Source of the DNA: Desulfotignum sp.
GTDB taxonomy: Bacteria; Desulfobacterota; Desulfobacteria; Desulfobacterales; Desulfobacteraceae
Assembly: GCA_011389575.1 (NCBI GenBank)
Contig: JAABUB010000025.1
Span: forward strand, 1 to 39,298
Reading direction: 5' to 3'
Length of the DNA: 39,298 nucleotides
Shown here: in pieces, positions 7,697-23,137 of the stretch
Position numbering within the stretch: position 1 is the first letter of the stretch
How the letters are laid out: every line of letters starts with the position of its first letter
Program-made: the position numbers and the translations under genes
The notes under the pieces: model-generated
What the model was told of the DNA's origin: nothing
Database searches by the model: none
What the model saw: only the letters and a program-made list of their open reading frames with translations

Positions 7697-7742
7697 GCAT
7701 TGACAAAACACCCGGATGCGGGGACAGGATTTCAGGGGCGCC

Positions 7743-9220: not shown

Positions 9221-10066
9221 TCAGATACGCAGCGGGATGCCGTCCAGATAAGACAGGCTTTTGGCCCACCGGCCCATGGTGGTATCCTTGACAGATGCCA
9301 TCAACAGCCGTTCCATACCAAACCCCATGCCCACCCAGGTATCGGTGATGGCCCAGGCCGCATCCAGGGGATGGGGCCCCATGGCACCGGATCCCAGTTC
9401 CAGGCCGGAAGGATGGGCCACCAGATCCAGGGTGGTGCCGTACACCGCTGAGCTTTCTTCCTCAAACCGAATATCCGCTATTCCTGCGGTGTAGGCCACC
9501 ATGCCTGCCAGTTCTTTGAGCCGCTCAAGGCGCTCGGATTCAGGCGTTCCCATCTCCACCAGGTTGAGCATGGTAAATTCATTGCTGTGGCAGGCCCCGT
9601 CCGATTCCTTCCTGAAGCAGGATCCGATTTCATAAAACCGCACCGGCCGGAAATCCAGGCGGGAAAAATCCTTCATCAGGCTGTACAAACCCGCTGCCAG
9701 CATGGGCCGCAGGCACTGGGTGTGATTGATCCAGAAAATCTGTTCATTCAGGGGATGGGTCTCATCAATACCCATTTTTGCCAGGGCTGCTCTGGTGGTG
9801 ATGGTCGGGGTGGTCACCTTTGCAAAGCCCTGGTCCCGCAACAGACCGTCAAGGTCCTGCGCCAGCTGAAAGGCCCGGGTTGGCCGGCGGCATGTCAGCC
9901 GGTCTGCCAGTTCTGTATGCAGGGATTTTACCTGCTTTTTTTCAATGGCCTGGAAGGCCCGGTTTCTTTGGGCAGGGGTGTGAAACCCGTCCGCCATAGT
10001 GCCGGGATCGAGTCCCAAATTTTTCAATCGGGCGGCCTGGGTGTCTGTCCAGTATATCTTTGTCAT
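9221..10066 (-). CDS. pylSc: Pyrrolysyl-tRNA synthetase, catalytic subunit (PylSc)
   Basis: This 281-aa class II synthetase catalytic domain charges tRNA-Pyl with pyrrolysine. Class II motif 2 is CFRKESDG (Arg152) and motif 3 is GFGMERL (248-254). By alignment with methanogen PylRS the Pyl pocket is kept: Tyr128 in LAAGLY (M. mazei Y306), Asn168 in FTMLN (N346), Tyr209 in VYGTTLD (Y384) and Trp244 in TWVGMGFG (W417); the C348 position is Val170. There is no fused N-terminal tRNA-binding domain, as expected for bacterial split PylS. The ATG overlaps the pylD stop (ATGA), so it is the last gene of the pyl operon. Those alignments are from memory. Confidence 0.97.
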   Translation of the reverse strand: MTKIYWTDTQAARLKNLGLDPGTMADGFHTPAQRNRAFQAIEKKQVKSLHTELADRLTCRRPTRAFQLAQDLDGLLRDQGFAKVTTPTITTRAALAKMGIDETHPLNEQIFWINHTQCLRPMLAAGLYSLMKDFSRLDFRPVRFYEIGSCFRKESDGACHSNEFTMLNLVEMGTPESERLERLKELAGMVAYTAGIADIRFEEESSAVYGTTLDLVAHPSGLELGSGAMGPHPLDAAWAITDTWVGMGFGMERLLMASVKDTTMGRWAKSLSYLDGIPLRI

Positions 10067-10917
10067 CTGTTTATCCGGATCGATTCACAGAAAAGGGACA
10101 CAGCCATGACCGCCACCCCGATCTCCAGGGTGTCGTGAACCAGGTGCGGTCCCAGCATTGCTGCGGCTTCAGCAGATACCCCCAGAGGCACCCCCGGGGC
10201 CGCCACCCGCATGTCCGGCGACACCAGAGTACCGGTGATGATATCTGGAACGGGGGTGGCTTCCAGTATGAAGCGGTGACCAGACAGGGCAGTCTCCAGA
10301 TCTTCTTCAATAGTAATATCGGTGGTCCGGTACCGGCCTGACACGGTTTCTTTCACCCACTCCGCAGCGCGCCTGTCCTTGTCCAGCAGAGCCACCCGGG
10401 CGCCCAGAGAGGCCAGCAGGTCTGCCCCGGCCGCCCCCACAGGACCACAGCCCAGCACCAGGACATCCCGGCCCCGGATACCGCCGGCCATCAGATCCAG
10501 GGCTGCGGCAAACCCCCTGCCCGTGGCATCGGCATTGTCTATCACCTGCCGGGCATGCAGGTCAATGGCCATAAACCGATTGTCATCCGCCATCATGAGG
10601 GCATCATATCCGATTGCAAAGGCATGGGCCACCCCGGCCACATCGGGCTGGTCCGCCACTGCTGCCCGGCATCCCAGAAAGGTCAGAATGGCGGCCACAG
10701 TATCGCTGAACCGGCTGATAATCCCCAGGCCGGCGGTCACCGGTACCACACAGATTGATTTGTCCAGCTGACGGTTCTTGAATGCCTTCTCATCCATGCC
10801 GCAGGCGTGACAGGCGATACCCAAAAGCGACCGGCCGGTTTTAATTTCCAGGTTCCGGTTGTAGTCTGCCAGGCTTGGGGTAATGTGACAGATATCATCT
10901 GGCTGCAGCCGGGTCAT
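10063..10917 (-). CDS. pylD: Pyrrolysine biosynthesis dehydrogenase PylD
   Basis: This 284-aa protein catalyses the last step of pyrrolysine synthesis: NAD-dependent oxidation of (3R)-3-methyl-D-ornithinyl-N6-L-lysine followed by cyclisation to the pyrroline ring. The Rossmann dinucleotide site is VLVLGCGPVGAAGADLLASLGARVALLDKD at about residues 150-180, which has GxGxxG spacing. Upstream, VTAGLGIISRFSDTVAAILTFLG and the MMADDNRFMAID segment are PylD-like, and the C-terminus carries GVPLGVSAEA and HDTLEIGVAVMAV. It starts 23 bp inside the end of pylC and overlaps pylSc by 4 bp, so translation is likely coupled through all three genes. Confidence 0.96.
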   Translation of the reverse strand: MTRLQPDDICHITPSLADYNRNLEIKTGRSLLGIACHACGMDEKAFKNRQLDKSICVVPVTAGLGIISRFSDTVAAILTFLGCRAAVADQPDVAGVAHAFAIGYDALMMADDNRFMAIDLHARQVIDNADATGRGFAAALDLMAGGIRGRDVLVLGCGPVGAAGADLLASLGARVALLDKDRRAAEWVKETVSGRYRTTDITIEEDLETALSGHRFILEATPVPDIITGTLVSPDMRVAAPGVPLGVSAEAAAMLGPHLVHDTLEIGVAVMAVSLFCESIRINR

Positions 10918-12289
10918 GATCCTGGTTCCCCTGTTCTGAATTTTCCATTGCTGACGAATCCTGCATTGCTTTTGGTTGATTCACGGCAGTTTTCACGAAC
11001 CTGCCAATATCCTTTCGAATCTGCCTGTAACAGGCGCTGCGTGCGGCAGCCATGTCTTTTGGGCTGTCTGCACAAAATATCAGGGTGGCCTCCCAGCGGG
11101 ACCGGCCCGGCCCATAATTGGTCAGGGCCTCACAGCTGCCGAAAAATCCGGGCTCCAGCCTTAGGGAACCGGCCCGGCCGATGATGTGTTCGCCCAGAAA
11201 CCGGATACGGTCCGGGCCGGCCTGGATATGTTCCACCACCACCCACCGGCCCGAAAGCTCCCCGGAGGAAGAGGTTTCTCCCATGGGCTGCCCGGGGCAA
11301 AGTGCCTGGCCAGGGAGCTGTCCGGGTGACGTTTCCGGGCCTCGTCCGTGTTCCAATTTTTCCGTATGGGCTGAATGGTCCGGGGCCTGCCCGAAGATAG
11401 GTAACCATCCCGTACCATATTTCAATCTTTGCGTATAGGCACTCTGGACCGGGACAAACCGTTCCGCCAACAGCTGGACCATGTTGATCCCGGTGGCCCA
11501 GTACACGGCCATGGGGGTCTGGCTGGGAAACCTTGCATCGATCTCCAGCAGTTTGAGGTCTCCGTCATGAAGGATCACTTCCAGATCCATGATCCCTTTC
11601 AGATCGATTGCTTCGGCCAGGACCAGGGCCATCTCTTCCAACCGTGTGACCTGTTCGGGGGACAGGCGGGTGGGGGCGGACACCCGCTTGCAGTCATGGA
11701 CTCGGTCCATGTGAAGGTCGGTGATACACAGGGACACATACTGTCCCGGCATTCCCACGACTTCAATGGAAAACTGGGGGCCTTCCAGGTATTGCTGTGC
11801 CACCAGGATATCTGGTACCCGGCCGCCGGGAAATGCGGCATAAAAGGCGGCCGCATCAGGGTACAGGCACACCCCCTGGCTGCCGCTGGCCTGATCCGGC
11901 TTGACCACCACGGGAAATCCGCACCCGGGCCAGGTTTTGGGGACCGGCAGATGCATGGTGTCAAACAGGGCGTTTGACCTTTGTTTGGAACAGGTCAGGG
12001 AATAGGCATCACTGTCAAAGGCCAGGGGAACCTTTTTTAATTGCGCCCATTTTTCCACCAGCGACAGCACCACTTTGTCCTCGATGGCCGGAATAATCAG
12101 GTCCACGCCCGGACAGTCATCCGGCACAAAGCACTTGCGGGTGAATTCAAACCGGACAAACCGGTCACATATGCCGGCAGCCGGGACATCCCAGGACTTG
12201 TCAATGACCAGGGTGTGGTATCCGGCTTTTTTTGCCAGATACACCACTTCCAATCCCTGGAGCCTGCCCCCGGCAACGGCTATGCGCAT
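10895..12289 (-). CDS. pylC: 3-methylornithine-lysine ligase PylC (ATP-grasp), with an unusual insertion and tail
   Basis: PylC joins (3R)-3-methyl-D-ornithine to the epsilon-amine of L-lysine using ATP. The N-terminus MRIAVAGGRLQG is a Rossmann-like strand-loop. The ATP-grasp core includes FPVVVKPDQASGSQGV (about residues 125-140), VAQQYLEGPQFSIEV, and the metal-binding LKGIMDLEVILHDGDLKLLEIDARFPSQTP (about 230-259). At 464 aa it is about 100 aa longer than the archaeal enzyme (about 364 aa). The extra length is a Gly/Pro/Ser-rich insertion at about residues 300-346 (DNA about 11251-11389) and a hydrophilic C-terminal tail from about 435. The start at 12289 overlaps the pylB stop by 10 bp; an in-frame extension further upstream lies within pylB and is rejected. 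Confidence 0.95.
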   Translation of the reverse strand: MRIAVAGGRLQGLEVVYLAKKAGYHTLVIDKSWDVPAAGICDRFVRFEFTRKCFVPDDCPGVDLIIPAIEDKVVLSLVEKWAQLKKVPLAFDSDAYSLTCSKQRSNALFDTMHLPVPKTWPGCGFPVVVKPDQASGSQGVCLYPDAAAFYAAFPGGRVPDILVAQQYLEGPQFSIEVVGMPGQYVSLCITDLHMDRVHDCKRVSAPTRLSPEQVTRLEEMALVLAEAIDLKGIMDLEVILHDGDLKLLEIDARFPSQTPMAVYWATGINMVQLLAERFVPVQSAYTQRLKYGTGWLPIFGQAPDHSAHTEKLEHGRGPETSPGQLPGQALCPGQPMGETSSSGELSGRWVVVEHIQAGPDRIRFLGEHIIGRAGSLRLEPGFFGSCEALTNYGPGRSRWEATLIFCADSPKDMAAARSACYRQIRKDIGRFVKTAVNQPKAMQDSSAMENSEQGNQDHDPAAAR

Positions 12290-13410
12290 GGCACCACTTT
12301 CCCGGCGGGTGCGTGGCAAAAAAGGCCTGACCGCCGATGCATTGCCTGCCGGTGGGTCACCCAGGCCTGATAGTCGCCGGCCGCAGCCGGCACCAGGCCG
12401 CACCTGTGAAGCACTGGCACCACCTTTGCCAGGGTCCGGCCGGCTTCGGCTATATCCAGGACCGGGTTGGCCACCCCGGCCAGACCGGCCAGAGGAGGCA
12501 CAATGGAGGTCACCACATTGGCACCGGCATCAAGGCGCTCTGCCAGCCCGGCCAGGCCGTCCACATCCAGGGAGGCCGGGATCAGCACATCCGGCATCAC
12601 CAGGCGCATCACGGCAATGGTCACCAGTTCGTTTCCTCTTTCAGTCGTTGCAGTTCGGGCCATGGGAATACCGGTCTGGGGCACAAAACGCATCACCCGG
12701 GCCTGGTCCACTGCAAACCGTTTCATGAACGCAATGGAATCCGCCAGGTCTGCGGCGGTTTCTCCCACTCCGGTCAGGATGCCTTCTTCCACCAGCAGAC
12801 CCAGGTCCCGGGCCCGGTATTTTGCAGACAGGCGGTAGTGGTAATCCTGCCCCGGCCGCAGGGTGTCATACAATTGTTCATTATGAGTTTCCTGATAACA
12901 GGCATACCAGGTGACTCCGGCCCGGCCCAGATCTGCAAGCACGTCACTGGAAACGGTACCGGGAGAAATCATCACCGGCAGATGCGTGTGCTGCCCCACC
13001 GACCGGATCATTTCCAGCCACTCCTGAATTTGAGATTGTGTCCCGCCGACAATATCCGGGTCTTCCCCCATGGTCAGGTCAATCAGGTGGACCCCGGCCG
13101 CCGCCATCTCCATGGCCGCAGACAGGACCTGTTCCCTGGTTTTGCGGTATCGTTTCAGGGAGGTGTTGGCCTGCCGGTACCGGCAGAACCGGCAGTTGTT
13201 GCGGCAATGGGTGGAAAAATACAAAAACCCGTAGAAAAACACCTGGTTGCCAAAATATCTCTGCCGCACCGCCCGGGCCGCAGCAAACAGCCGATCCGTG
13301 TCTTCGGGGTCCCGCTGTTCCAGCAGCCAGGCGATATCCGGTTTTTCAAGGGTTATTCCCTGTTCTATAGCCGTCAGAAGGGTGGTGAGTCTATCAATGT
13401 GAGCAGACAT
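12280..13410 (-). CDS. pylB: Methylornithine synthase PylB (radical SAM)
   Basis: This 376-aa radical SAM mutase converts L-lysine to (3R)-3-methyl-D-ornithine, the first step of Pyl synthesis. The [4Fe-4S]/SAM motif is THCRNNCRFC with cysteines C69, C73 and C76 (CxxxCxxC). IDLTMGEDP, ACYQETHN and RFVPQTGIPM fit the biotin-synthase-like TIM barrel. The start at 13410 shares one base with the pylSn stop (TGATG); the longer frame to 13602 would lie inside pylSn and is rejected. The gene ends in TAG at 12282-12280, inside the overlap with pylC. If Pyl were inserted there, the protein would gain an unrelated tail of roughly 55-60 residues before a TGA. Whether UAG terminates here is worth testing. 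Confidence 0.96.
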   Translation of the reverse strand: MSAHIDRLTTLLTAIEQGITLEKPDIAWLLEQRDPEDTDRLFAAARAVRQRYFGNQVFFYGFLYFSTHCRNNCRFCRYRQANTSLKRYRKTREQVLSAAMEMAAAGVHLIDLTMGEDPDIVGGTQSQIQEWLEMIRSVGQHTHLPVMISPGTVSSDVLADLGRAGVTWYACYQETHNEQLYDTLRPGQDYHYRLSAKYRARDLGLLVEEGILTGVGETAADLADSIAFMKRFAVDQARVMRFVPQTGIPMARTATTERGNELVTIAVMRLVMPDVLIPASLDVDGLAGLAERLDAGANVVTSIVPPLAGLAGVANPVLDIAEAGRTLAKVVPVLHRCGLVPAAAGDYQAWVTHRQAMHRRSGLFCHAPAGKVVPCA

Positions 13411-13778
13411 CAGGCACACGGTTTCCGGGTCGGATCTTCCAGCATGGAGCCGTGATGCCGTTTGAACCGGGTGGCGGCATATTTTTCCAGTTTCCATGCC
13501 GGTACGTTGCACACCGGACAGACCGTCACCGCCCATTTGTTTCTGATCCACCTGCCGGCTCTGCTGTTCAATGAGTTGCGGATCACAAACACCTTGTTGC
13601 AATGGGTGGTGAGTGTTGCCATATCACCGGTCACGTCAATGGTGCGGATGCCGTGGAGCTGTCCGGTACGGGACGGCCAAAGTTTGATCTTGGCGATCAG
13701 GTTGAACAGCCGAACCCGTTTCCGGTAAAACCGTTTTTTTGCAGGTTTGGTCTGTTTGTTTTGCGCTGTTGGTGCCAT
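13410..13778 (-). CDS. pylSn: Pyrrolysyl-tRNA synthetase, N-terminal tRNA-binding subunit (PylSn)
   Basis: This 122-aa basic protein is the separate tRNA-Pyl-binding domain that supports PylSc in bacteria. KLWPSRTGQLHGIRTID matches the methanogen PylS N-terminus (GLWMSRTGTLHKIK), and the later CPVC pair in WAVTVCPVCNVPAWKLEKYAATRF belongs to its zinc site. The start is uncertain: ATG 13778 lies only 15 bp after the tRNA-Pyl 3' end and has no visible Shine-Dalgarno; the frame also reaches a GTG at 13817 inside the tRNA gene, which is unlikely to be used. The gene overlaps pylB by one base (TGATG). Confidence 0.95.
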   Translation of the reverse strand: MAPTAQNKQTKPAKKRFYRKRVRLFNLIAKIKLWPSRTGQLHGIRTIDVTGDMATLTTHCNKVFVIRNSLNSRAGRWIRNKWAVTVCPVCNVPAWKLEKYAATRFKRHHGSMLEDPTRKPCA

Positions 13779-13793
13779 GTCATATAGAGAAAC

Positions 13794-13866
13794 TGGCGGA
13801 GAGTCCGGGAGTCGCACCCGGCTGCATGGATTTAGAGTCCATGTGATCCCGTCCGATCCACCCTCC
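13794..13866 (-). tRNA. pylT: tRNA-Pyl (anticodon CUA, amber suppressor)
   Basis: The 73-nt gene folds into the tRNA-Pyl shape. The acceptor stem is GGAGGGT/ACTCTCC with one G-U pair, a single base G separates acceptor and D stems, the D stem is GATC/GATC with a 6-nt loop, the anticodon stem is six base pairs (CATGGA/TCCATG) around the loop CTCTAAA, the variable loop is three bases (CAG), and the T stem is CCGGG/CCCGG. The T loop TGCGACT lacks the usual TTC. CCA is encoded at 13796-13794. The anticodon CTA is at 13835-13833 and reads UAG. It sits 10 bp after the oxidoreductase gene and 15 bp before pylSn, inside the operon, so it must be cut out of a polycistronic transcript. Confidence 0.97.
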
Positions 13867-13876
13867 GGCTGTCACA

Positions 13877-16342
13877 TCATCCCTTTACTCTTTTCATTTC
13901 AGGATCATATAACGGTGTCAGAGAAACAGCTGCCGGACTGGTTTTTCCGGCAATATCGATCTCCCATCTGCCATTTTTTACATATGCCTCATCCACGGGC
14001 GCATCCGCCTCGATCATGAACAGTCCCACAGCCCCGCCCAGGGTGTATCCGTAGGAACCGGACCTTACATACCCGGCCGGTTTCCCGTTCCGGAAAATGA
14101 CCTCGCCATGGTGCAGCAAGGGCTCCGGATCCTTGACCAGAATTTGGGCCAGCCGCCGTTTCAATGGCCCGGCCGCTTTTTTGGCGATACACGCCTCTTT
14201 TCCGATAAAATCGCCCGGCTTGTCCAGCCGGACCGTGAAGCCAAGGCCGGCTTCGTATGGATCATCTGTATTGTCCATATCATGACCGTAATCCCGGTAT
14301 CCTTTTTCCAGGCGCAGGCTGCCTAAGGCCTTCAACCCGGCATGGGTCAGGTCAAATGTTTTTCCGGCCTCCACCAGGGTGTCATACACGTGCACCGCCT
14401 GTTCCGTAGGGATATACAGTTCATACCCCAGTTCCCCCACATAGGTGATGCGCACACACAGGACCCGGCCGTATCCGATGGCGACCTTTTGTGCATGCCG
14501 GAAGGGAAAAGCCGTATTGGACAAGTCGGTGTCGGTCACCGACTGCAGCAGGTCCCGTGACCGGGGTCCCTGGACATTCACCTGGGCATAGGCCGAGGTC
14601 ATGTCCGTTACAAATGCATGGGCGGTGTCCGGTATATGTCTTTGGATATAGGCCAATGCATGGCGGTGGATGGTATCGGTCACCACCACGAAAAACCGGT
14701 CTGACGAAAGCTTGGTGACGGTCAGATCCGCCATCAGCTGGCCATCTTTGTTCAAACAGGTGGTGTAGGTGATCCGGCCCGCAGGGCCATCCACTGCATT
14801 TGCGCAGATATAATCGAGCACCTTCCCGCTGTCCTTTCCCTGGACCAGGAATTTGGGCATGAATGACATATCCATGAGCACCACGTTTTCCCGGGCAGCC
14901 CTATGCTCCGCCTCCCAGAACCCGAACCAGGGCTCCCGGCCCCAGGCATGTTTTTCGATGACCGCCTGCTGCGGTGTCGGGGCAAACCAGTCCGCCCCTT
15001 CCCAGCCGCTGACATCCCTGAAATACGCGCCGTTTGCCTTCAGCCGCTCATAAACGGCCGATCTCTTGGCCCCCCGGGCGGTTTTCATGGACTGGTAGGG
15101 ATAATGACACTGGTAAACCATGCCCAGGGATTCCACGGTCCGGTGCCGCCGGTATTCCGGGTTGTTCTGAAAGGTGTGCAGCCGGGCCATATTGAACCCG
15201 GTGATATCCACCTGGGGATTTCCGGTCATGATCCACCGGGCCATCATCTGTCCGAGACCCGGCCCCATGATGATCCCCACCGAATTCAACCCTGCGGTCA
15301 CAAAATAGTTTTTCAGCTCCGGGGCTTCTCCGATGATGGCCTGGAGATCAGGGGTAAAGCTTTCCGGGCCGCAGAAAAACTTTTTCACGCCCAGCTCCAT
15401 GGTCACCGGCACCCGGGACATGGCTTTTTCCAAAAAGGGTCCCATGCGGTCCCAGTCCGGTTCGATCTCCCCGAAAGTGAAATTTTCCGGCACCCGGCCG
15501 ATCTTCCAGGGGGCGCACTTCGGCTCGAACAACCCGATCATCAGTCCTCCGACCTCTTCTCTGTAATACCCGTAATGAGAAGGGTCTTCGAGCACCGGCA
15601 TGTTTTTGGGGATGTCGTCCAGCTCTTCGGTGATCAGATAATAATGTTCCGCCGCCTGGTTGGGAATGTTGATACCGTCCACCGCTCCCAGCTGCCGGGC
15701 CCACATGCCGGCGCAGTTGACCACTTTATCGGCAATGATATCCCCGTGCGCGGTTTTCACGCCGGCCACAGCCCCGTTCTTTTTGATCAGACCGGTCACT
15801 GCCGTTTTTTCAAGTATTTTCACACCGAAATTTCTCGCACCCCTGGCCAGGGCCATGGTGGCATCCACCGGGTTGACCCGGCCGTCCTCTTTGACATAAA
15901 ACCCGGCCAGAAGATCATCCACCCGGGCCAGGGGGAACAGGTCTTTGATCTCTTTGGGAGATATTTCATGCACATCCACTCCGCAGTAGCGGTTGAAAGC
16001 CGCCACCCGGCGGTATTCTTCCAGCCGGTCTTGATTGGCGGCCGCCTCGATGAACCCCACGGGGGTGAATCCGGTGGACAATCCGGTTTCTTCTTCCAGC
16101 CGAGCATACAGGTCCCGGCCGTAAATCCGCATCTGTGTGGCGGTTTCAGACAAAGACCCGAAGGTCACCATCAATCCGGCCGCATGCCAGGTGGTGCCGC
16201 TGGTCAGTTCATCTTTCTCCAGGAGTACCACCTCTTTGCACCCCATTTGTCCCAGGTGATAGGCAATGGAACAGCCGATAATCCCGCCCCCGACAATGAC
16301 CACCCGGGCCTGTCCGGGCAGGTCCATATGTTTATTATTCAT
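13877..16342 (-). CDS. FAD oxidoreductase/aminomethyltransferase fusion, dimethylglycine-sarcosine dehydrogenase type
   Basis: This 821-aa protein has an N-terminal DAO-type FAD domain (VVIVGGGIIGCS, G18-G23) with TTWHAAG, whose His53 is the position of covalent FAD attachment in dimethylglycine and sarcosine dehydrogenases. A middle FAO-type segment follows. The GcvT-like folate-binding half starts at about residue 440 (VVLMDMSFMPKFLVQGKDS; YVGELGYELYIPTEQA). Such enzymes oxidatively demethylate N-methylglycines and pass the one-carbon unit to tetrahydrofolate. It lies 41 bp after the Pyl-containing mttB and 10 bp before pylT, so it belongs to the operon. The exact substrate (dimethylglycine, sarcosine or another secondary/tertiary amine) is not decided by sequence. 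No signal peptide is seen; a cytoplasmic location is likely. Confidence 0.9.
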   Translation of the reverse strand: MNNKHMDLPGQARVVIVGGGIIGCSIAYHLGQMGCKEVVLLEKDELTSGTTWHAAGLMVTFGSLSETATQMRIYGRDLYARLEEETGLSTGFTPVGFIEAAANQDRLEEYRRVAAFNRYCGVDVHEISPKEIKDLFPLARVDDLLAGFYVKEDGRVNPVDATMALARGARNFGVKILEKTAVTGLIKKNGAVAGVKTAHGDIIADKVVNCAGMWARQLGAVDGINIPNQAAEHYYLITEELDDIPKNMPVLEDPSHYGYYREEVGGLMIGLFEPKCAPWKIGRVPENFTFGEIEPDWDRMGPFLEKAMSRVPVTMELGVKKFFCGPESFTPDLQAIIGEAPELKNYFVTAGLNSVGIIMGPGLGQMMARWIMTGNPQVDITGFNMARLHTFQNNPEYRRHRTVESLGMVYQCHYPYQSMKTARGAKRSAVYERLKANGAYFRDVSGWEGADWFAPTPQQAVIEKHAWGREPWFGFWEAEHRAARENVVLMDMSFMPKFLVQGKDSGKVLDYICANAVDGPAGRITYTTCLNKDGQLMADLTVTKLSSDRFFVVVTDTIHRHALAYIQRHIPDTAHAFVTDMTSAYAQVNVQGPRSRDLLQSVTDTDLSNTAFPFRHAQKVAIGYGRVLCVRITYVGELGYELYIPTEQAVHVYDTLVEAGKTFDLTHAGLKALGSLRLEKGYRDYGHDMDNTDDPYEAGLGFTVRLDKPGDFIGKEACIAKKAAGPLKRRLAQILVKDPEPLLHHGEVIFRNGKPAGYVRSGSYGYTLGGAVGLFMIEADAPVDEAYVKNGRWEIDIAGKTSPAAVSLTPLYDPEMKRVKG

Positions 16343-16383
16343 CTGTTTTCCTTTTCCATTTTTTCTTTTCTATGCCATGGATA

Positions 16384-17856
16384 TTAACTGTGAATCCCCA
16401 TCTGTTTTTCGGTGTCCGCAACTATGGACCGGATTTTTCCCAGCACATCCGCAGACAGCGGTTCCGGTTCATGGTGCTCCAGAATATACCGCACTTTTTC
16501 CATGGCCCGTTCATAAGCGGTGGAGGAGCCAGCTTTTTCCCAGGTTCCCCTCATTTTTCTGTCTATCAGTTCCGGACGGGACTGGCCTCTCATATGGGTG
16601 AATGTGTGCTTGTGCATGAGAAAATCTGCGCCTGATCCTATCTCCTTGATGGGATCTATGGCAAGCGTCTCATCATTCACGGGAATGCCCTGGATGGTAT
16701 GTTTTATCATACGCGCAAACTCACAATCCAGTACCAGCTGACCGTAATCAAAGGTGATGCCGCTTTCAAGCATCCCCGGACCGTAAATCATATTGGCACC
16801 TGCCAATGCGGGAATCAGTCCGGTGAGTGTCTTTTCATGGCCAGTCTGGACATCGGATATTTTGCTGTCGCCCTACCCGCCCGCCACATAGCTGGGCAGG
16901 GCATAGTACCTGGCAAGGCGGGCCACGGCCCCGGATATCACCGCACATTCCGGGGTGCCCACACTGGCGGATGCCAGTTTCAGATCCATGGCCGTGGTGG
17001 AACTGCCATAAATCACCGGCGCGCCTTTCCGGGTCAGCTGTGCCAGGGTAATCCCGGACAATACCTCGGCATTGTGGTTCACCAGGGTCCCGGCAAGGGT
17101 CACCGGGGCCGTGCCCCCTGCCATGGCCATGGACAAAATATTGCACACCACATTGTTTTTTGCCGCTGTCATGATGATGTCACAGCAGTCGGCAATCAGT
17201 TTCAAGGGGCTTACCGGACAGGTGGTGAACGACACAATAGGCCGGTTCTGAAAGGCTTTCACCCCGCCGGCAATGGCTTGGGCCATTGCAATGATCTTTT
17301 CCAGAAACCCGCCGTTTCCCGGCCCGAATGCGCAATGCTTGGATGTATGGGTTAAATAAGCTTCCGCATTGTGCAGGGGTACGGTGCGCTGGTCCACATC
17401 ATGTGCCCCCAGGGCTTTTTCACAAAAATCGATTTCATCCAGATAATCGATGACCCTGGCGGAATCGACCAGGTCCTGTTTTAAGGGGGGCCTGTTTTCA
17501 CCGGTATACGGGTCATTTACCATCACCCCCTCGCTGAAATTGGTAAAATGCACCCGGGTATTTTCCAGAACAATGTCATGGGCGGGGTTGCGGCCGTAAA
17601 GCACCACCTTGGCAGGGGCCGATCGTATGGCATCCTCCAGCACGTGGGGAGGGATCCGGACGTTTTTTGTATCCCGGTCAACCACGGCCCCCCCGTTTTC
17701 AAAACAATCCAGAGCTGCATCATCTTCCACAAAAACGCCTGTTTCATTGAGCACCTCAAGGGTGCCGTAGTGAATCTCATCCAGTTCGTCATCGGTCAGG
17801 ATATTGAGACTCAGTCCTGCGCTGCGCTGCCCTCCTGCGTGAAAATTTCGTTTCAT
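16384..17856 (-). CDS. mttB: MttB-type trimethylamine methyltransferase with in-frame amber codon (pyrrolysine)
   Basis: A 327-codon frame from ATG 17856 meets TAG at 16875-16873 and continues in the same frame to TAA at 16384, giving 490 residues with Pyl at 328. M. barkeri MttB has about 495 residues with Pyl near 334. The flanks LPSYVAGG-Pyl-GDSKISDVQTGHEK match the active-site context of MttB, and family similarity runs through both halves (N-terminal LNILTDDELDEIHYGTLEVLNETGVFV; C-terminal GANMIYGPGMLESGITFDYGQL). MttB moves a methyl group from trimethylamine to a cognate corrinoid protein; none is encoded here, so the substrate could also be a related amine. A GAGGTGGG ribosome site precedes the ATG. 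It is the first gene of the pyl operon. Confidence 0.95.
16873..16875 (-). other. UAG sense codon for pyrrolysine in mttB (residue 328)
   Basis: The minus-strand triplet is TAG. The frame is open for 327 codons before it and 162 after it, with MttB-family conservation on both sides. The complete tRNA-Pyl and pylSn/B/C/D/Sc set lies in the same operon. A search for a specific downstream RNA element was not attempted. Confidence 0.93.
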
Positions 17857-17966
17857 CTGATTCCCACCTCGTCACCATGTTTCATCAATTATCCCCCCAT
17901 GCATACAGCCCTAAAAGGGGGTGTCAGCCTGCGTTTCACAAAAAACCGCCCAAAGCGCCTGAAGGG

Positions 17967-18021
17967 GTGCTCTGGATAGTTGCCATAAGCATGCCAGGTT
18001 TTCGTTCGCTCTTTGCAGCAC
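17967..18021 (-). ncRNA. Second stem-loop in the mttB operon leader
   Basis: GTGCT (17967-17971 on the plus strand) pairs with AGCAC (18017-18021), and inside it CTGG (17972-17975) pairs with CCAG (17994-17997). It lies between the large structured element and mttB. A T6 run follows on the minus strand at about 17940, but the hairpin just before that run is weak, so an attenuator is only a possibility. Confidence 0.3.
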
Positions 18022-18030
18022 TCTGTACCA

Positions 18031-18198
18031 AGCCCCGCCCCCGGTGGTGTCCTGTGCCCGGCCCGAGATCTGCGGGGGCCTGTTTGCCTAAGAACAATGA
18101 AGAGCGGCAACCCGCCCTCTGGTTGAAAACCATCCCGGCATATTTCACCAGGCCCCCTCCGGCTCTGACGGTCCGTTCACAGGACACCACCAGGGGCT
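18031..18198 (-). ncRNA. Unassigned structured RNA element in the mttB-pyl operon leader
   Basis: On the plus strand GGTGGTGTCCTGTG (18043-18056) is the exact reverse complement of CACAGGACACCACC (18178-18191). The stem extends outward with AGCCCC (18031-18036) and GGGGCT (18193-18198). Inside, GGGGGCCTG (18074-18082) pairs with CAGGCCCCC (18149-18157), enclosing small hairpins at 18101-18120 and 18121-18131. A minus-strand extended -10 at 18223-18218 would start a transcript about 13 nt before this element, making it the 5' leader of the operon. It could be a riboswitch-like element, a 6S-like regulatory RNA or a small inverted-repeat mobile element. I found none of the conserved boxes of the cobalamin riboswitch. 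The strand is inferred from the promoter only. Confidence 0.5.
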
Positions 18199-18217
18199 CC
18201 CCATAAAAGCGCACGCG

Positions 18218-18223
18218 ACTATA
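18218..18223 (-). promoter_or_regulatory. Extended -10 promoter candidate for the mttB-pyl operon
   Basis: The minus strand reads TTTGCTATAGT, that is TGC followed by TATAGT, an extended -10. The -35 region is AT-rich but has no good match. Predicted start is near 18211, giving a leader of about 350 nt before mttB. Confidence 0.45.
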
Positions 18224-18250
18224 GCAAATATTCAGGGGCGATATTTATAC

Positions 18251-18277
18251 TTGACATCCCTACAAAACCTTTATACG
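18251..18277 (+). promoter_or_regulatory. Promoter candidate for the ABC transporter operon
   Basis: TTGACA at 18251-18256 is followed by TATACG at 18272-18277 with a 15-bp spacer, shorter than the ideal 17. The leader then runs about 125 nt to the ATG at 18408. The palindrome at 18290-18306 lies just downstream, where a repressor could block transcription. Confidence 0.45.
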
Positions 18278-18289
18278 TTTGTCAATCAA

Positions 18290-18306
18290 AAATTGTTCAA
18301 CAATTT
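18290..18306. promoter_or_regulatory. Perfect 17-bp palindrome, candidate GntR/FCD operator
   Basis: AAATTGTT-C-AACAATTT is a perfect inverted repeat with one central base. Its core TTGTTCAACAA fits the T-N-G-T-N3-A-C-N-A pattern known for FadR/FCD-type regulators. An FCD regulator is encoded in the same operon at 21003. It lies just downstream of the transporter promoter candidate. Confidence 0.55.
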
Positions 18307-18407
18307 ATGGATGGCACCAGAGACAGAACCAATAATGTTCGCTTAGTTACCGGCAGCATTTCGCTTCCGGAAATAATAACCAACAGGAGATGAACAGGAG
18401 GTTTACC

Positions 18408-19256
18408 ATGAAAAAATTGTCTTGGACCCTTGCAGTGATCGTATCCACCTGCCTTTTTTTTACCGCAATATCTTTTGCCGAACAGTCAGTTCTCGATGAA
18501 ATTATGGCAGCAGGAACCATTGTGGTGTCCACCGATGCCAATTACGCCCCCCAGAGTTTTTTGAACGAAAAGGGCGAGTTGGAAGGGTTTGACATCAGTG
18601 TTGCCAGAGAGGTGGCCAAACGGATGGGGGTTTCCGTCAAATTTGTCACACCGGACTGGGACCTGATCACCGCCGGCAAATGGGGAAAACGATGGGATAT
18701 TTCCATCGGGTCCATGACCCCCACCAAGGAAAGAAAAAAAGCACTGCTGTTCACCCTGCCCTATTACAGCTCTCCTGCCCAGTTTGCTGTGCATGAGGAC
18801 AACACTTCCATAAAGACCCTGGCAGATCTGGCCGGCAAAAAAATCGGTGTTGCCAGTGAAACCACCAATGAAAGATATCTGCAAAAAGATCTGTCCATCG
18901 AAGATGTGGACATTGTGTTTCAGGACTGGGAAGCAGACCTGGTGACCTATCCCACCGATGCCAACCACATCGAAGACCTGACCCTTGGCGACGGCGCGCG
19001 CCTGGATGCCGTGTTCACCTCCCGGCAGACCCTTGCCGAAGCCATAAGTTCCGGATGCAAAAACGGCTGCCCTATCAAAATGCTGGGAGATCCCCCCTAT
19101 TACGAACCGTTAAGTTTTGCACTGGACAAAAGCCGGGCCAACAGCCAGCCCCTGGTGGACAAGCTCAATGAAATCATTCTGTCCATGAATGCCGACGGCA
19201 CCCTGGTGGCCCTGTCTGAAAAGTTCTACCAGACCAATTTGATTCCAAAGCTCTGA
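18408..19256 (+). CDS. ABC transporter periplasmic substrate-binding protein (polar amino acid type)
   Basis: This 282-aa protein has a Sec signal peptide (MKKLSWTLAVIVSTCLFFTAISFA, cleavage about residue 24) and a family 3 solute-binding fold: GTIVVSTDANYAPQSFLNEKGELEGFDISVAREVAKRMGV, DISIGSMTPTKERKKALLFTLPYY and LADLAGKKIGVASETT are the usual landmarks. Family members bind polar amino acids or opines; a methylated amino acid or betaine-like ligand is possible given the neighbours but not shown. The start at 18408 follows AGGAGG by six bases; an in-frame ATG at 18390 overlaps that site and is rejected. It is first in an operon with permease, ATPase, regulator and MttB-like genes. Confidence 0.93.
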   Translation: MKKLSWTLAVIVSTCLFFTAISFAEQSVLDEIMAAGTIVVSTDANYAPQSFLNEKGELEGFDISVAREVAKRMGVSVKFVTPDWDLITAGKWGKRWDISIGSMTPTKERKKALLFTLPYYSSPAQFAVHEDNTSIKTLADLAGKKIGVASETTNERYLQKDLSIEDVDIVFQDWEADLVTYPTDANHIEDLTLGDGARLDAVFTSRQTLAEAISSGCKNGCPIKMLGDPPYYEPLSFALDKSRANSQPLVDKLNEIILSMNADGTLVALSEKFYQTNLIPKL

Positions 19257-19266
19257 TGACCAGAAG

Positions 19267-19327
19267 CACAAGCAGTTTCTTTCCAGACTGTATCATGATA
19301 TCGGGCTGAAACTGCTTGTGTTTTTTT
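19267..19327 (+). terminator. Intrinsic terminator/attenuator between binding protein and permease
   Basis: CACAAGCAGTTTC (19267-19279) pairs perfectly with GAAACTGCTTGTG (19308-19320), followed by seven T residues. It lies inside the transporter operon, so partial termination would give more binding protein than permease, a common arrangement. Confidence 0.75.
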
Positions 19328-19361
19328 GTTTCTTTTTTATCACAGAACAAGGAAACCAAAA

Positions 19362-20228
19362 ATGAAGGCCGATACAAACTTATCTGAAGGCAGCGGTATT
19401 CCTGCAGAGGCCAGAAAAATCCTTACACAGATTGAAACAGACAGAGCCGCCTACAAACGAAAACTGGTCATATCCTTTATCATTCTTGCCATCGCCATGA
19501 TAATGGTGCTCATCGCTCTGAAACTGGATTTCCGGTTCATGAAAAACCAGCTGCCCTTTATCTTTGCCGGCATGGGGTACACCCTTTTGGTCTCATTCAT
19601 GGCCATCTCCCTGGCCTGTTTTCTGGCCGTTGTCGGTGCCCTGGGGCGGTTGTCCAAAAACCCGGTGTTCAACAGCATTGCCTCCTCTTATGTGTCCCTT
19701 ATCCGGGGAACACCGCTTTTGGTCCAGGTGTACATGTGGTACCTGGCCCTGCCCCAGATCGGAAAGGCCTTAGAAGGGTACGGGTTCACCGGTATCCAGG
19801 CATTCTTTACCCTGCCGGCTTTGACCGCCGGCATTCTGGCTTTAGGGGTATGTTACGGGGCCTACATGACCGAAACGGTCCGGGCCGGCATTCAATCCAT
19901 TGATCCGGGCCAGACCGAAGCGGCCAACGCCCTGGGCATGACACGGTCCCAGACCATGAAACGCATCATTTTTCCCCAGGCATTGCGGGTGATCATCCCG
20001 CCGGTTTCCAATGAGTTCATTGCCATGATAAAAGACTCGTCCCTCGTGTCCCTCATGGGCGTCTGGGAGCTGAGCTATCGGGCCATTAAAATGGGCAGGC
20101 GGCATTTTCAGTCCCTGGAAATGCTCATCACCGTAGCCCTGATTTACTGGATGATGTGCATCCTGCTCCAGTATTTCCAGGAAAAACTTGAAACCCATAT
20201 GGCCCGGGGCGACAGGAGTATCAGATGA
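19362..20228 (+). CDS. ABC transporter permease (polar amino acid type)
   Basis: This 288-aa inner-membrane protein of the HisM/GlnP family has a hydrophilic N-terminus, one TM helix (LVISFIILAIAMIMVLIAL) and a BPD_transp_1 core starting at IFAGMGYTLLVS. The EAA loop is EAANALGMTRSQTMKRIIFPQALRVIIPPVSNEF, which docks the ATPase. MYLALP-like and YVSLIRGTPLLVQ segments are typical of amino acid permeases. The start at 19362 follows AAGGAAA. Its stop overlaps the ATPase start (ATGA). Only one permease gene is present, so the channel is probably a homodimer. Confidence 0.93.
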   Translation: MKADTNLSEGSGIPAEARKILTQIETDRAAYKRKLVISFIILAIAMIMVLIALKLDFRFMKNQLPFIFAGMGYTLLVSFMAISLACFLAVVGALGRLSKNPVFNSIASSYVSLIRGTPLLVQVYMWYLALPQIGKALEGYGFTGIQAFFTLPALTAGILALGVCYGAYMTETVRAGIQSIDPGQTEAANALGMTRSQTMKRIIFPQALRVIIPPVSNEFIAMIKDSSLVSLMGVWELSYRAIKMGRRHFQSLEMLITVALIYWMMCILLQYFQEKLETHMARGDRSIR

Positions 20229-20989
20229 TGGAAAACGATTCTCCCATGGTGAAAATCACCAATATCCACAAGGTGTTTCCTCAGGACGTGCATGTGCTGT
20301 GCGGCATTGACCTGGAGGTGAAAAAAGGGGAAACCGTTGCCATCTTAGGGGCATCCGGTTCCGGGAAAAGCACGCTGCTGCGGTGCATCAATTTTCTGGA
20401 AGAACCCACTGCCGGTACGGTGGAGGTGGATGGTATCACGATTGAGGCCGGGGAAAACGACAAACTGAGAAACGGCCGCATCAGGGATATACGCAAGCGA
20501 ACCGGCATGTGCTTTCAGGCATTCAACCTGTTTCCCCATATGACAGTTCTGGAAAACATCATTGAAGGCCCGGTCACTGTTTTGCGCCAGAAAAAGGAGG
20601 CTGCCACAGCCTATGCCGAACAGCTGCTGCAGTGGATCGGGCTTTCGGAAAAAAGCGATGAACACCCTTCTCGCCTGTCCGGAGGCCAGCAGCAGCGGGT
20701 GGCCATTGCCAGGAGCCTGGCCATGAAACCCAAGGTGATGCTGTTTGACGAGCCCACTTCTGCTCTGGATCCTGAGCTGGTGGGAGAGGTGGTGGAGGTC
20801 ATGGAAAGACTGGCAAAGGAAGGGATGACCATTGTTGCCGTTACCCATGAGCTGCATTTTGCCCGGGATGTGGCAGACCGGATTCTGATCATGGACAACG
20901 GCAACTGGGTGGAGCAGGGACCGCCGGAAAAGATTTTCAACAATCCGGAACAGGAGCGCACCCGGCAGTTTCTGGCCCATATTCTGTAA
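20225..20989 (+). CDS. ABC transporter ATP-binding protein (polar amino acid type)
   Basis: This 254-aa ATPase energises the adjacent permease. Walker A is GASGSGKS at about residue 41, the Q-loop is CFQAFNLFPHMT, the signature is LSGGQQQRVAIARSLA, Walker B is VMLFDEPTSALDP, and the H-loop is VTHELHF. It resembles the GlnQ/HisP family. It overlaps the permease by four bases and ends TAA, followed after 13 bp by the GntR gene with its own AGGAAGG ribosome site. Confidence 0.95.
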   Translation: MMENDSPMVKITNIHKVFPQDVHVLCGIDLEVKKGETVAILGASGSGKSTLLRCINFLEEPTAGTVEVDGITIEAGENDKLRNGRIRDIRKRTGMCFQAFNLFPHMTVLENIIEGPVTVLRQKKEAATAYAEQLLQWIGLSEKSDEHPSRLSGGQQQRVAIARSLAMKPKVMLFDEPTSALDPELVGEVVEVMERLAKEGMTIVAVTHELHFARDVADRILIMDNGNWVEQGPPEKIFNNPEQERTRQFLAHIL

Positions 20990-21002: not shown

Positions 21003-21671
21003 ATGGCCCTCAGTTTGGAAGACCAGGCCTACGATAAAATCAAGATTGCCATCAGCAAAGGGTATATCCAGAAGGGAAGCAAACTTAAAGAGGTCGCTCT
21101 GGCAAACAGTCTGGGCATGAGCCGGGCCACGGTAAAAGGTGCCATCAAACGGCTGGTGTTTGAAGGGCTGGCTGATTTCTCCCCCAACAAAGGGGCTTCG
21201 GTTGTGAACCCTTCCCTTGAAGAGATCAAGGCTTGTTTTCAGGTGCGGGCCCGGCTGGAAAAGATGGCGGTCTCTCTGGCGGTGCACCACCTTGATCCCG
21301 GGGATTTTTATACCCTTCACCACCTGATCGAAAAGGAAAAAAAAGTGTTCAATGTCCGTGAGCTCGACCGGTACTATGAGATCAATGATGCCATCCATCT
21401 GTTGATCGCAAAAAAGGCGGCCAACCCGGTTCTGGTTCATTACATCAGGGAACTGATCCAGAAAACCACCATTTACCTGATTTTGTTCGACCCGTTTTAC
21501 CAGCTGCTGGAGGCCAACAACACCTCTCCGGATGAGCATGACGCAATTGTGTTTTTCCTGGAACAAAAAGACAGTGCCCGGGCGGAACAGGCCATGGAAC
21601 AGCACCTCACTAATACGGTGAGCGGCATTGATGTGAATCGGATAACCCCTGATGATTATTTAACTGTCTGA
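21003..21671 (+). CDS. GntR-family transcriptional regulator, FCD type
   Basis: This 222-aa protein has an N-terminal winged helix (residues about 8-75: AYDKIKIAISKGYIQKGSKLKEVALANSLGMSRATVKGAIKRLVFEGLADFSPNKGASV) and a helical FCD domain with candidate ligand/metal residues in EINDAIHLLIAKKAANPVLV, SPDEHDAIVFFLEQKD and AMEQHLTNT. It lies between the transporter ATPase and an MttB-family gene on the same strand and probably senses the transported or demethylated compound. Its candidate operator is the palindrome at 18290-18306. It is only distantly similar to the GntR protein at 4421. Confidence 0.9.
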   Translation: MALSLEDQAYDKIKIAISKGYIQKGSKLKEVALANSLGMSRATVKGAIKRLVFEGLADFSPNKGASVVNPSLEEIKACFQVRARLEKMAVSLAVHHLDPGDFYTLHHLIEKEKKVFNVRELDRYYEINDAIHLLIAKKAANPVLVHYIRELIQKTTIYLILFDPFYQLLEANNTSPDEHDAIVFFLEQKDSARAEQAMEQHLTNTVSGIDVNRITPDDYLTV

Positions 21672-21718
21672 ACCAGTAGGCCCCCCCTGTGAACCTTGCT
21701 GTAAAGGAAAAAAACCAT

Positions 21719-23137
21719 ATGTTTGATCTGAAACCCAGAACCCGGGTCATGACCAGAGAACAGATTGAAAAAATCCACCATGATGCGCTCTTAATTCTTC
21801 ACCAGACCGGGATAAAGGTGGATGATCCCGGGGCACGGAAAGTGTTTGAAAACGCTTTGGGAAAATCCGCACACGCCCCTGTGATCCATATCCCGGAAGA
21901 CCTTGTTCAGTGGGCAATCGAATCAGCCCCTTCATGCATCCCCGTATATGACCGCATGGGCCGGTCCTGCTTTGCTCTGAAGGGCGATGAAAACCAGGAT
22001 GCAGTGTTCGGCATCGGTGTTACCAATCTGCAGTATCACGACCCGTTTACAGACAAAATCCAGCCGTTTCTGCGGCACCACATGGGCCTTGCCGCAAGCC
22101 TGGGCCATACCTTGAAAAATTTTGATTTTATTTCAACCCCGGGGGTAATCCAGGACCTGCCCCCGGAAACAGCTGACACCCTGGGGGTCCTGGAAATGCT
22201 GGCCCATACCACAAAACCGGTGGTGATGCTCATATCCAACCCGGATTGCTTTGCAACCGCCCTGGACCTGTGTGAACATCTCACCCGGGATCTGGCTGAT
22301 CACCCCTTTGTAATCCCTTATGTGAATCCCATCACCCCGCTGGTGTTGAATGCGGACACTACCCGGAAAATGGATCTGTCCATTCAAAAAGGGCTGCCGT
22401 TTATCTTTTCCAATTACGGGATGTCCGGTGCCACCTGTCCCATCACCCCCGGGGGCACCCTGGCCCTGCTCACAGCGGAACTGGTGGCAGGGCTGGTATA
22501 CAGCCAGCTGGTGAAACAAGGGGCTCCCATCATCCTGGGCAGCCTGCCTGCCGCCTTTGACATGAAACATGCCGGCAGTTTTTATTCGCCCGGCACCCTG
22601 GTGCTGAATCTGGCCTGTGCTGAAATGATGGCCTTCTACAATATTCCCCACTGCGGCACATCCGGCAGCGGCAACGGCTGGGGCGCAGACCTGCTTGCCG
22701 CCACCACCCTGTGCATCAACCACCTCACCAGCTGCTCCGGGGCCGCGGGCATGGTCCCGTTTGTGGGGGGCAGCTTTGATTCCCTGGTTTTTTCTCCGGA
22801 ACTGGTTGTTTATTCCGATGATCTCATTTGCCAGTCCAGACTGTTTGCTGCCGGATTTTCCATTGCAGATGACCATATCGGGTTTTCCGACATTGAAACA
22901 CTTGGCCCGGGGGGAAATTTTCTGTTGTCATCCCTGACCGGCCGACATTTCAGAAAATCCCAGTTTTCAAGCACGATCTGGCCGTTTCTATCCCTTGACA
23001 AATGGCGGAACAAAGGGGCTCCCACCGCCGCCGGTACGCTGCACGACAAAACATGTGACCTGCTGGAACACCTTGTAATTCCAGAGGACCATGACTCTAT
23101 CATGGCACAGGGAGAAGCCTTTCTGGCATCTGTTTGA
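21719..23137 (+). CDS. MttB-superfamily methyltransferase without pyrrolysine (paralogue 2)
   Basis: This 472-aa protein is similar along its length to trimethylamine methyltransferase MttB (TREQIEKIHHDALLILHQTGIKVDDPGARKVF; GGTLALLTAELVAGLVYSQLVKQGAPIILGSLP). Its frame has no TAG. Aligning IPHCGTSGSG with the Pyl flank of mttB puts Ser at the Pyl position, as in the non-Pyl family that includes glycine betaine methyltransferase MtgB. The residues after that position diverge from both other copies here. The substrate is unknown; a quaternary amine is the best guess from context. ATG 21719 follows AAGGAAAA; an in-frame GTG at 21689 is less likely. It follows the GntR gene by 47 bp. Confidence 0.85.
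   Translation: MFDLKPRTRVMTREQIEKIHHDALLILHQTGIKVDDPGARKVFENALGKSAHAPVIHIPEDLVQWAIESAPSCIPVYDRMGRSCFALKGDENQDAVFGIGVTNLQYHDPFTDKIQPFLRHHMGLAASLGHTLKNFDFISTPGVIQDLPPETADTLGVLEMLAHTTKPVVMLISNPDCFATALDLCEHLTRDLADHPFVIPYVNPITPLVLNADTTRKMDLSIQKGLPFIFSNYGMSGATCPITPGGTLALLTAELVAGLVYSQLVKQGAPIILGSLPAAFDMKHAGSFYSPGTLVLNLACAEMMAFYNIPHCGTSGSGNGWGADLLAATTLCINHLTSCSGAAGMVPFVGGSFDSLVFSPELVVYSDDLICQSRLFAAGFSIADDHIGFSDIETLGPGGNFLLSSLTGRHFRKSQFSSTIWPFLSLDKWRNKGAPTAAGTLHDKTCDLLEHLVIPEDHDSIMAQGEAFLASV

Follow-up and report, generated by a model that had tools for sequence, protein, structure and literature searches.

Pyrrolysine (Pyl) is inserted at in-frame UAG codons by a suppressor tRNA (tRNA-Pyl, gene pylT), and the control of a tRNA able to read every UAG stop is a real problem for cells. 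In bacteria, the gene orders pylTScBCDSn and pylSnScBCD are given in the available excerpts of PMC3941956, and those of PMC2933860 describe pylBCD and pylTScSn standing apart in a deltaproteobacterial symbiont, a homologue of the trimethylamine methyltransferase gene mttB within the pyl cluster of Acetohalobium, and, in D. acetoxidans, a RamA-like gene that separates pylT from pylS. Expression of a bacterial pyl operon has been found to depend on trimethylamine (TMA) (PMC11467909, in part), and marine Desulfobacteraceae use Pyl with a conserved local gene order, in which the gene of a lysine/arginine/ornithine-binding protein adjoins mttB (PMC8318568, in part). The window analysed here is a stretch of 39,298 nucleotides, the entire contig JAABUB010000025.1 (C85) of a 3.56-Mb, 83% complete genome of Desulfotignum sp. 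(GCA_011389575.1), a genus placed within the Desulfobacteraceae by the NCBI taxonomy. It carries a complete set of pyl genes in which tRNA-Pyl stands in a row with the enzyme that needs it, and such an arrangement is a simple answer to the problem of controlling a suppressor tRNA.

The preferred reading, which is given a probability of about three in four, is that this row is a complete operon for the use of TMA with its own code-expansion cassette, read as one transcript and later lost in a sister clade. Within one genus the pyl genes are seen intact, half dismantled (G069, a single assembly) and gone with a stump of the tRNA left behind (G062, G063 and G073). These tRNA-Pyl fossils are the stronger result; they would place the loss of pyl within the genus and are likely a trace of a contraction of the genetic code, a process which is usually inferred from absence alone and which is visible here at the level of single bases. 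The series of losses also reveals which part is kept, a gene for a dimethylglycine dehydrogenase-like protein (DMGDH), and which parts have gone together, i.e. mttB, the pyl genes and a transporter.

The gene row and its relatives

The eight elements lie on the minus strand between 17856 and 9221 in the following order: mttB (16384..17856), coding for a TMA methyltransferase of 490 aa with an in-frame UAG (Pyl) at codon 328; the gene of the DMGDH-like FAD dehydrogenase/aminomethyltransferase (13877..16342; 821 aa); pylT (13794..13866), called by ARAGORN as tRNA-Pyl (CUA) with an encoded CCA; pylSn (13410..13778), for the tRNA-binding part of the split pyrrolysyl-tRNA synthetase (PylRS); pylB (12280..13410), for methylornithine synthase, with its UAG stop at 12282-12280; pylC (10895..12289), for 3-methylornithine-lysine ligase; pylD (10063..10917), for 3-methylornithyl-lysine dehydrogenase; and pylSc (9221..10066), for the catalytic part of PylRS. 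Gaps of 41 bp (mttB/DMGDH), 10 bp (DMGDH/pylT) and 15 bp (pylT/pylSn) are followed by overlaps of 1 bp (pylSn/pylB), 10 bp (pylB/pylC), 23 bp (pylC/pylD) and 4 bp (pylD/pylSc). An earlier note, made from the letters of the window alone, had named these genes, their common strand and their tight packing with overlaps, and all eight elements were found as it stated. The row is confirmed as real and it is not due to chance, because the same order recurs in other Desulfotignum genomes and partly in other genera.

Its assignment to the Pyl system is based on several features. pylB, pylC, pylD and the split pylSn/pylSc all score over the curated cut-offs of their families (TIGR03910, TIGR03909, TIGR03911, TIGR03912 and TIGR02367, respectively). 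mttB forms a single frame only when the UAG at 16875-16873 is read through, and its product reaches 736 bits against the TMA-methyltransferase equivalog TIGR02369 (cut-off 525). This in-frame UAG occupies a conserved site of the methylamine methyltransferase, being found at the identical position in nine relatives that were read and in G072. The UAG region also matches Rfam PYLIS_3 (81.7 bits, gathering threshold 38), a match that mostly reflects the homology of mttB and gives no independent proof of an insertion signal. The tRNA shows the CUA anticodon, a 6-bp anticodon stem, one base between the acceptor and D stems and a 3-base variable loop; in an alignment of 17 tRNA-Pyl sequences, the window's included, 374 of 374 cells in 22 pairs are paired, and the general Rfam tRNA model remains below its threshold at the window's tRNA-Pyl. 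Among the 11 MTTB-family matches in the same genome, one has an internal UAG. One of the other ten, an MttB fragment at a contig edge (L011, contig C154), was considered as a second Pyl client; its C-terminal piece has no match to Pyl-type MttB and resembles a third, UAG-less MttB, and the part that would hold a UAG lies outside the assembly.

The bacterial clusters with split PylRS, as excerpted, have in common with the window the genes themselves, the split PylSn/PylSc, a tRNA-Pyl beside pyl genes and a UAG-containing methylamine methyltransferase nearby. On the other hand, the window has the order pylT-Sn-B-C-D-Sc, mttB and a demethylase gene before pylT, and a tRNA lying 10 and 15 bp from the genes on either side. 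Gene order is not essential to membership of the pyl system. The order pylTSnBCDSc is neither of the two published bacterial orders cited above and was not found in open-licence papers, a search that gives weak evidence; it is not among the bacterial orders found in print, and the arrangement is a conserved, new variation on a known system. The earlier note had regarded it as non-standard and had proposed a comparison of gene order with other bacterial pyl loci. Such a comparison divides the claim: the order does differ from those in the excerpts of PMC3941956, but it is common to the readable loci of the genus, where it is the norm, it recurs in the family, and for Acetohalobium a pyl cluster that contains an mttB homologue was already published (PMC2933860). 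In the archaeal pylTSBCD operon, tRNA-Pyl also stands in a row with the Pyl genes and a methylamine methyltransferase gene lies nearby; however, pylS is there one gene and, according to the excerpts of PMC2933860, the neighbouring methyltransferase operon of Methanosarcina is separately transcribed. The marine Desulfobacteraceae that use Pyl share with the window the family, the Pyl-containing MttB, the local gene organisation and the type of neighbour beside mttB, whereas the available main text of PMC8318568 describes no embedding of the tRNA, DMGDH junction, promoter block, series of losses or tRNA fossils.

A search with PylSn returned 19 loci, five of them at 83-95% identity, and these five are in metagenome-assembled genomes of Desulfotignum. 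Forty-five loci (L042-L086, some covering the same place twice) were mapped with the window proteins and ARAGORN, and the tRNA junctions were re-read. The segment mttB-DMGDH-pylT-pylSn is present in 6 of 13 Desulfotignum genomes, those with a readable junction (G000, G067, G068, G069, G070 and G072), with 10 bp before the tRNA (13 in G068) and 15 bp after it; pylB-C-D-Sc continues the row in five of these six, G069 being without pylB and most of pylC. Two genomes of genus g5 show DMGDH-pylT-pylSn-B-C-D-Sc, the tRNA being preceded by a gap of 25 bp in G054 and of 15 bp in G052, and etfB and etfA lie between DMGDH and pylT in G061 and G044. G004 (genus g3) has a transporter gene, mttB, DMGDH and pylT (9 bp) with no pylSn next to it, and its PylSc is on a separate contig. 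Several relatives carry a corrinoid gene, or corrinoid and methyltetrahydrofolate methyltransferase genes, between pylSn and pylB. A protein gene on the same strand ends at most 25 bp upstream of tRNA-Pyl in 12 of the 22 family loci inspected, which are a subset of all such loci, some of the remaining ones starting at a contig edge. Thus the window layout is the order of Desulfotignum, recurring in its family, and no one-off. The DMGDH-pylT junction is ancient in Desulfotignum and its neighbours. Since it is also found in two other genera, the simplest reading is that it predates the genus and that the loss is the derived state.

PylD exceeds its cut-off in 27 of the 86 family genomes (6/13 in the genus). 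The binding protein of the divergent transporter described below, at E 1e-90 or better, occurs in 7 of the 13 genus genomes, exactly those with pyl genes of the genus type. G064, with PylD/PylSc and transporter pieces at contig ends, was counted as pyl-positive. G065 was considered and not counted: its PylB, at the edge of a contig, is only 59% identical to the window's, the genome (6% contamination) has no PylD over the cut-off and no PylSc match. In G071 no pyl gene or tRNA-Pyl matched, the locus itself being unseen. As a separate observation, G081 has two copies of tRNA-Pyl 2.8 kb apart in one pyl cluster (L079:4870-4942 and 7696-7768), flanking pylB.

Decayed tRNA-Pyl and the loss of the pyl genes

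Three Desulfotignum genomes, G062 (98% complete, 5 contigs), G063 (96%) and G073 (87%), have no PylD or PylB over the cut-off and no PylSc match genome-wide, pylC and pylSn having been searched at the locus only. Their locus consists of KorA-KorB, MFS remnants, DMGDH (94% identical) and MTAP in the order of the window, and it gives no match for mttB, the transporter row or pylSn-Sc; their best genome-wide matches to MttB are at about 35%, and the transporter binding protein was not found in them at E 1e-90. An MttB homologue of G062 was inspected for an internal TAG and discarded, as it has a terminal stop only (the counterpart in G063 is unread). Directly after DMGDH each of the three genomes carries a decayed tRNA-Pyl, located at L115:6364-6436 (plus strand), L116:4475-4547 (minus strand) and L117:4306-4371 (minus strand).

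A covariance model built from 17 tRNA-Pyl sequences and run on the 86 family genomes gives 73.0 bits for G062 and G063 and 44.3 for G073; the other family copies score 86.7-101.7 and the next match 34.2. ARAGORN calls the fossil tRNA in G062 and G063 and not in G073. In an order-wide draw of 389 genomes, the lowest tRNA-Pyl inspected beside pyl genes has 75.9 bits, and because intact distant copies reach this value, 73 bits is not sharply set apart by score: it is the place, the absence of pyl genes and the sequence that decide. The tRNA of G062 differs from the window's at nine positions, with seven of these located in the final 19 nt (binomial P 0.0017, with the 19-nt cut picked after inspection of the data). 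It has one disrupted acceptor pair and four G-U pairs, and it ends in CAA in place of CCA. This pattern suggests a breakpoint or a replacement in the T-arm instead of a uniform decay. In G062 the fossil tRNA is followed by a MazE/MazF-type pair, and DNA similar to that region follows it in G063 and G073.

In G004 (L162:9426-10676), where mttB-DMGDH-pylT is intact, unrelated sequence with a HigA-like frame (by eye) stands after the tRNA, a second break near the 3' end of tRNA-Pyl. Four further matches of the order-wide draw were considered as decayed copies and set aside: those of G397 (47 bits) and G105 (40 bits) are actually tRNA-Gln(CUG), whereas ARAGORN identifies those of G291 and G227 (75.9 bits) as tRNA-Pyl, and they stand beside PylSn/PylSc. 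The three Desulfotignum copies are thus the only ones regarded as decayed, other order-wide matches under 40 bits being unread. A degenerate tRNA-Pyl is already on record, since the third tRNA-Pyl of Methanomassiliicoccus luminyensis is likely a pseudogene according to the excerpts of PMC3941956; that organism, however, keeps its pyl clusters, whereas the fossils stand in genomes without matches to PylB, PylD and PylSc over the cut-off. No account of a tRNA-Pyl remnant in a Pyl-less bacterium was found in open-licence papers, which is weak evidence, since mostly titles and the beginnings of abstracts were covered.

The pyl unit has likely disappeared from a sister clade in which DMGDH and the decayed tRNA-Pyl remain, a direction that would follow from tree and synteny. 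In the DMGDH DNA tree the fossil genomes form one clade (94/99) that joins five pyl-positive species (95/98), while the pyl-positive G070 (beside G066), and then G004, fall outside this branch; one 42% DMGDH-like match (L084) was excluded from the DMGDH trees. The alternative that a Pyl donor supplied the decayed tRNA together with a segment carrying DMGDH, the Pyl-less species never having used Pyl, is difficult to reconcile with this DNA tree, with the same fossil clade given by the flanking KorB (100/100), with a spacer sequence before the tRNA common to the pyl-positive G068 and the fossils, and with the synteny of the flanks. In its favour, the stretch read in G070 is without the usual KorAB, MFS and MTAP neighbours, so the block may move, and G066 has DMGDH at the locus and no trace of the tRNA, which could be either a cleaner loss or an older state. 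Besides, the DMGDH protein tree, although it recovers the fossil clade (99/99), leaves the order within the genus unsettled, and the KorB tree does not nest that clade among the pyl-positive species, which a single branch (74/77; G070 not included) can set apart. Taken together, an arrival from a donor seems quite unlikely, and loss within the genus is preferred.

Partial losses are also seen. The genome G069 (96% complete) retains a 151-codon pylB-pylC remnant (L103:4300-4760), the result of two mutually in-frame deletions; mttB with its UAG, pylT, pylSn, pylD and pylSc are retained in this single assembly, and no PylB match was found elsewhere in the genome. This may represent an ongoing loss, a strain importing Pyl or an assembly fault. 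G058 (100% complete, 2 contigs; L157:9896-12116) has an intact tRNA-Pyl, PylSn and PylB and no match for PylD or PylSc.

Transcription of the row

Between mttB and the divergent transporter gene lies a conserved promoter/operator block of 60 bp (18249..18308, both strands) with the palindrome-like site TTGTTGAACAA and TTGACA boxes on both strands. Its ungapped identity is 59/60 in G067, G068, G069 and G072 and 55/60 in G070; further out it is 51/60 in G061, 47/60 in G004 and 36/60 in G020, the last match being weak because the best matches in 10 unrelated control loci reach 28-33/60. Operators of the GntR family have the form TNGT-N3-ACNA, which TTGTTGAACAA fits as a candidate GntR operator. 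A gene of this family is located in the divergent row on the plus strand, which comprises an ABC substrate-binding protein of the amino-acid type (18390..19256), an ABC permease (19326..20228) and an ABC ATPase (20225..20989), both conserved neighbours whose translations were read by eye, the GntR-family regulator (21003..21671), a candidate for the palindrome at 18293-18303, and mttB2, of the MttB superfamily and without UAG (21689..23137). Both the block and the transporter-GntR-mttB2 row are apparently parts of one unit with the pyl row.

A single transcript from mttB to pylSc with excision of the tRNA is likely from these data. Immediately before pylT the minus strand yielded no two-box sigma-70-like site, nor was a terminator-like site detected in the interval from pylT to pylSn. 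The earlier claim that the tRNA must be processed from an mRNA gains indirect support from the missing promoter site, the absence of synonymous constraint, the conserved block before mttB and the close packing across genera, which speak for processing and fall short of that "must". As tRNA genes usually carry their own promoters, pylT might have a private one in the 3' end of DMGDH, in which case the supply of tRNA would be independent of mttB and the packing simply a compaction; a TATGAT word about 40 nt upstream of pylT (by eye) and a terminator-like hairpin at 13953-13930 would agree with this. Nevertheless, the two-box site is missing there, and within the final 41 DMGDH codons the difference at four-fold sites among the pyl-positive members of the genus is 0.277, the fourth highest of 14 bins and about like the most variable ones, so no hidden pylT promoter is seen. 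The gene upstream also switches between genomes (DMGDH or etfA) and the close spacing stays. A private promoter is considered unlikely. A four-fold dip (0.078) at DMGDH codons 421-480 was tried as an overlapping promoter element and rejected, since the 20-codon bins are unexceptional (0.73, 0.48 and 0.46 between genus and outgroup; 0.41-0.81 elsewhere).

In the single-transcript reading, one promoter in the divergent control region, common with the transporter-GntR-mttB2 row, would drive the mttB-DMGDH-pylT-pylSn-pylB-pylC-pylD-pylSc transcript, from which RNase P and 3' processing would excise tRNA-Pyl, separating a catabolic mRNA from a pyl mRNA. To judge from their families, PylBCD would make pyrrolysine and PylSn/PylSc charge the tRNA, so that codon 328 of mttB, a UAG, would be translated as Pyl. 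MttB would then convert TMA to dimethylamine using a corrinoid protein encoded elsewhere, and DMGDH may oxidatively demethylate the product of MttB or another N-methylamine. The organism in which expression of a pyl operon depends on TMA is reportedly Acetohalobium. By eye, no Shine-Dalgarno sequence was seen before pylSn (15-nt spacer in the window) in six Desulfotignum loci, nor a clear one between tRNA and pylSn in most of 11 further loci, which fits a weak translation of pylSn from a processed end.

In the window, the leader of mttB contains extra DNA of about 270 bp (17964..18234) between promoter and gene. Its core is a repeat of about 254 bp (17972-18225) with 29-nt inverted arms, which has 19 matches of at least 190 bp in its own genome, itself included, and folds strongly as RNA (z -5.7). 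This DNA is not in the leaders of four other Desulfotignum genomes nor in that of G061; the leader of G072 runs off its contig. The inverted repeat (18037-18065/18169-18197) was considered as a riboswitch of the operon and rejected: it is a repeat element, because it is absent from five other leaders and has the 19 matches in its own genome.

The DMGDH-like enzyme and the pylB stop

The domain architecture of the DMGDH-like protein, DAO + FAO_M + GCV_T + GCV_T_C, is that of the dimethylglycine dehydrogenase type. The Pyl-dependent dimethylamine methyltransferase MtbB (PF09505, E 1e-20) was found in 9 of the 86 family genomes and in none of the 13 from the genus, several of which are incomplete. 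As no MtbB was found in the genus, DMGDH is a candidate for the second step of demethylation and may act after MttB. MtbB is present in 1 of 13 family genomes with DMGDH beside mttB/pylT and in 8 of the 18 others with tRNA-Pyl (Fisher p 0.045). This hand-counted test is weak: it is uncorrected for kinship, the grouping of the 18 was made without a genome-wide search for DMGDH, and G041 and G037, two of the 18 in which etfA precedes pylT, could be members of the first group. It could also be that the gene codes for an unrelated dimethylglycine or sarcosine dehydrogenase, standing between two halves of a TMA unit and without a part in TMA breakdown. The nearest solved structures are dimethylglycine dehydrogenases (447 bits), and the three Pyl-less sister species retain DMGDH alone at the same locus, so the enzyme must also work without mttB and pyl, and its substrate need not come from MttB; this weakens the proposal of the earlier note that it is the likely downstream enzyme. 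Adjacency of mttB and DMGDH in G054, G061, G044, G020 and G004, the addition of etfBA to the pair in G061 and G044, and the rarity of MtbB beside DMGDH argue for a common function instead. An unrelated enzyme is held to be a serious possibility, though a doubtful one.

The persistence of DMGDH in the sister genomes is one of several points that weigh against the operon as read here, together with the behaviour of the DMGDH protein and KorB trees. No corrinoid gene, beside mttB or elsewhere, was matched in the window by tblastn, and the only corrinoid-MeTr pair found is on contig C154, beside a different MttB homologue. G069 keeps the operon with pylB and most of pylC missing. Not every copy of mttB is shown intact: that of G068 is divided between two contigs, and that of G072 begins at a contig edge and seems to be frameshifted downstream of the UAG. 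As regards a continuous transcript, the hairpin at 13953-13930 inside DMGDH, although weak, has a U-rich tail, terminator-like sites number 28 in the region against a shuffle mean of 9.9, and the leader repeat before mttB could lower expression in this genome.

The UAG stop of pylB is nested in the start of pylC (12280-12289, ATGCGCATAG), and pylB is the sole protein gene of the window's row that ends in UAG. The nesting is found in all five genus members that still have pylB, and the overlap ATGCGnnTAG occurs also in Pelosinus, Sporomusa and a Synergistaceae genome. The operon might sense its own product in this way: abundant charged tRNA-Pyl would cause readthrough of the pylB UAG, extending PylB by 24-80 residues (60 in the window), and with less termination-coupled restart at pylC the synthesis of Pyl would be throttled. 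Such sensing is very unlikely, given that most other compared loci end pylB in UGA or UAA, that UAG is the only stop allowed by the PylC start (M-R-I/V-A) in this register, and that the extension has no conserved length. Moreover, among 29 window open reading frames of at least 200 aa, KorA and an MlaE-type gene likewise stop at UAG, as does mttB in G067. Apart from mttB2, the window holds a second additional UAG-less gene of the MttB superfamily, at 37685-39115.

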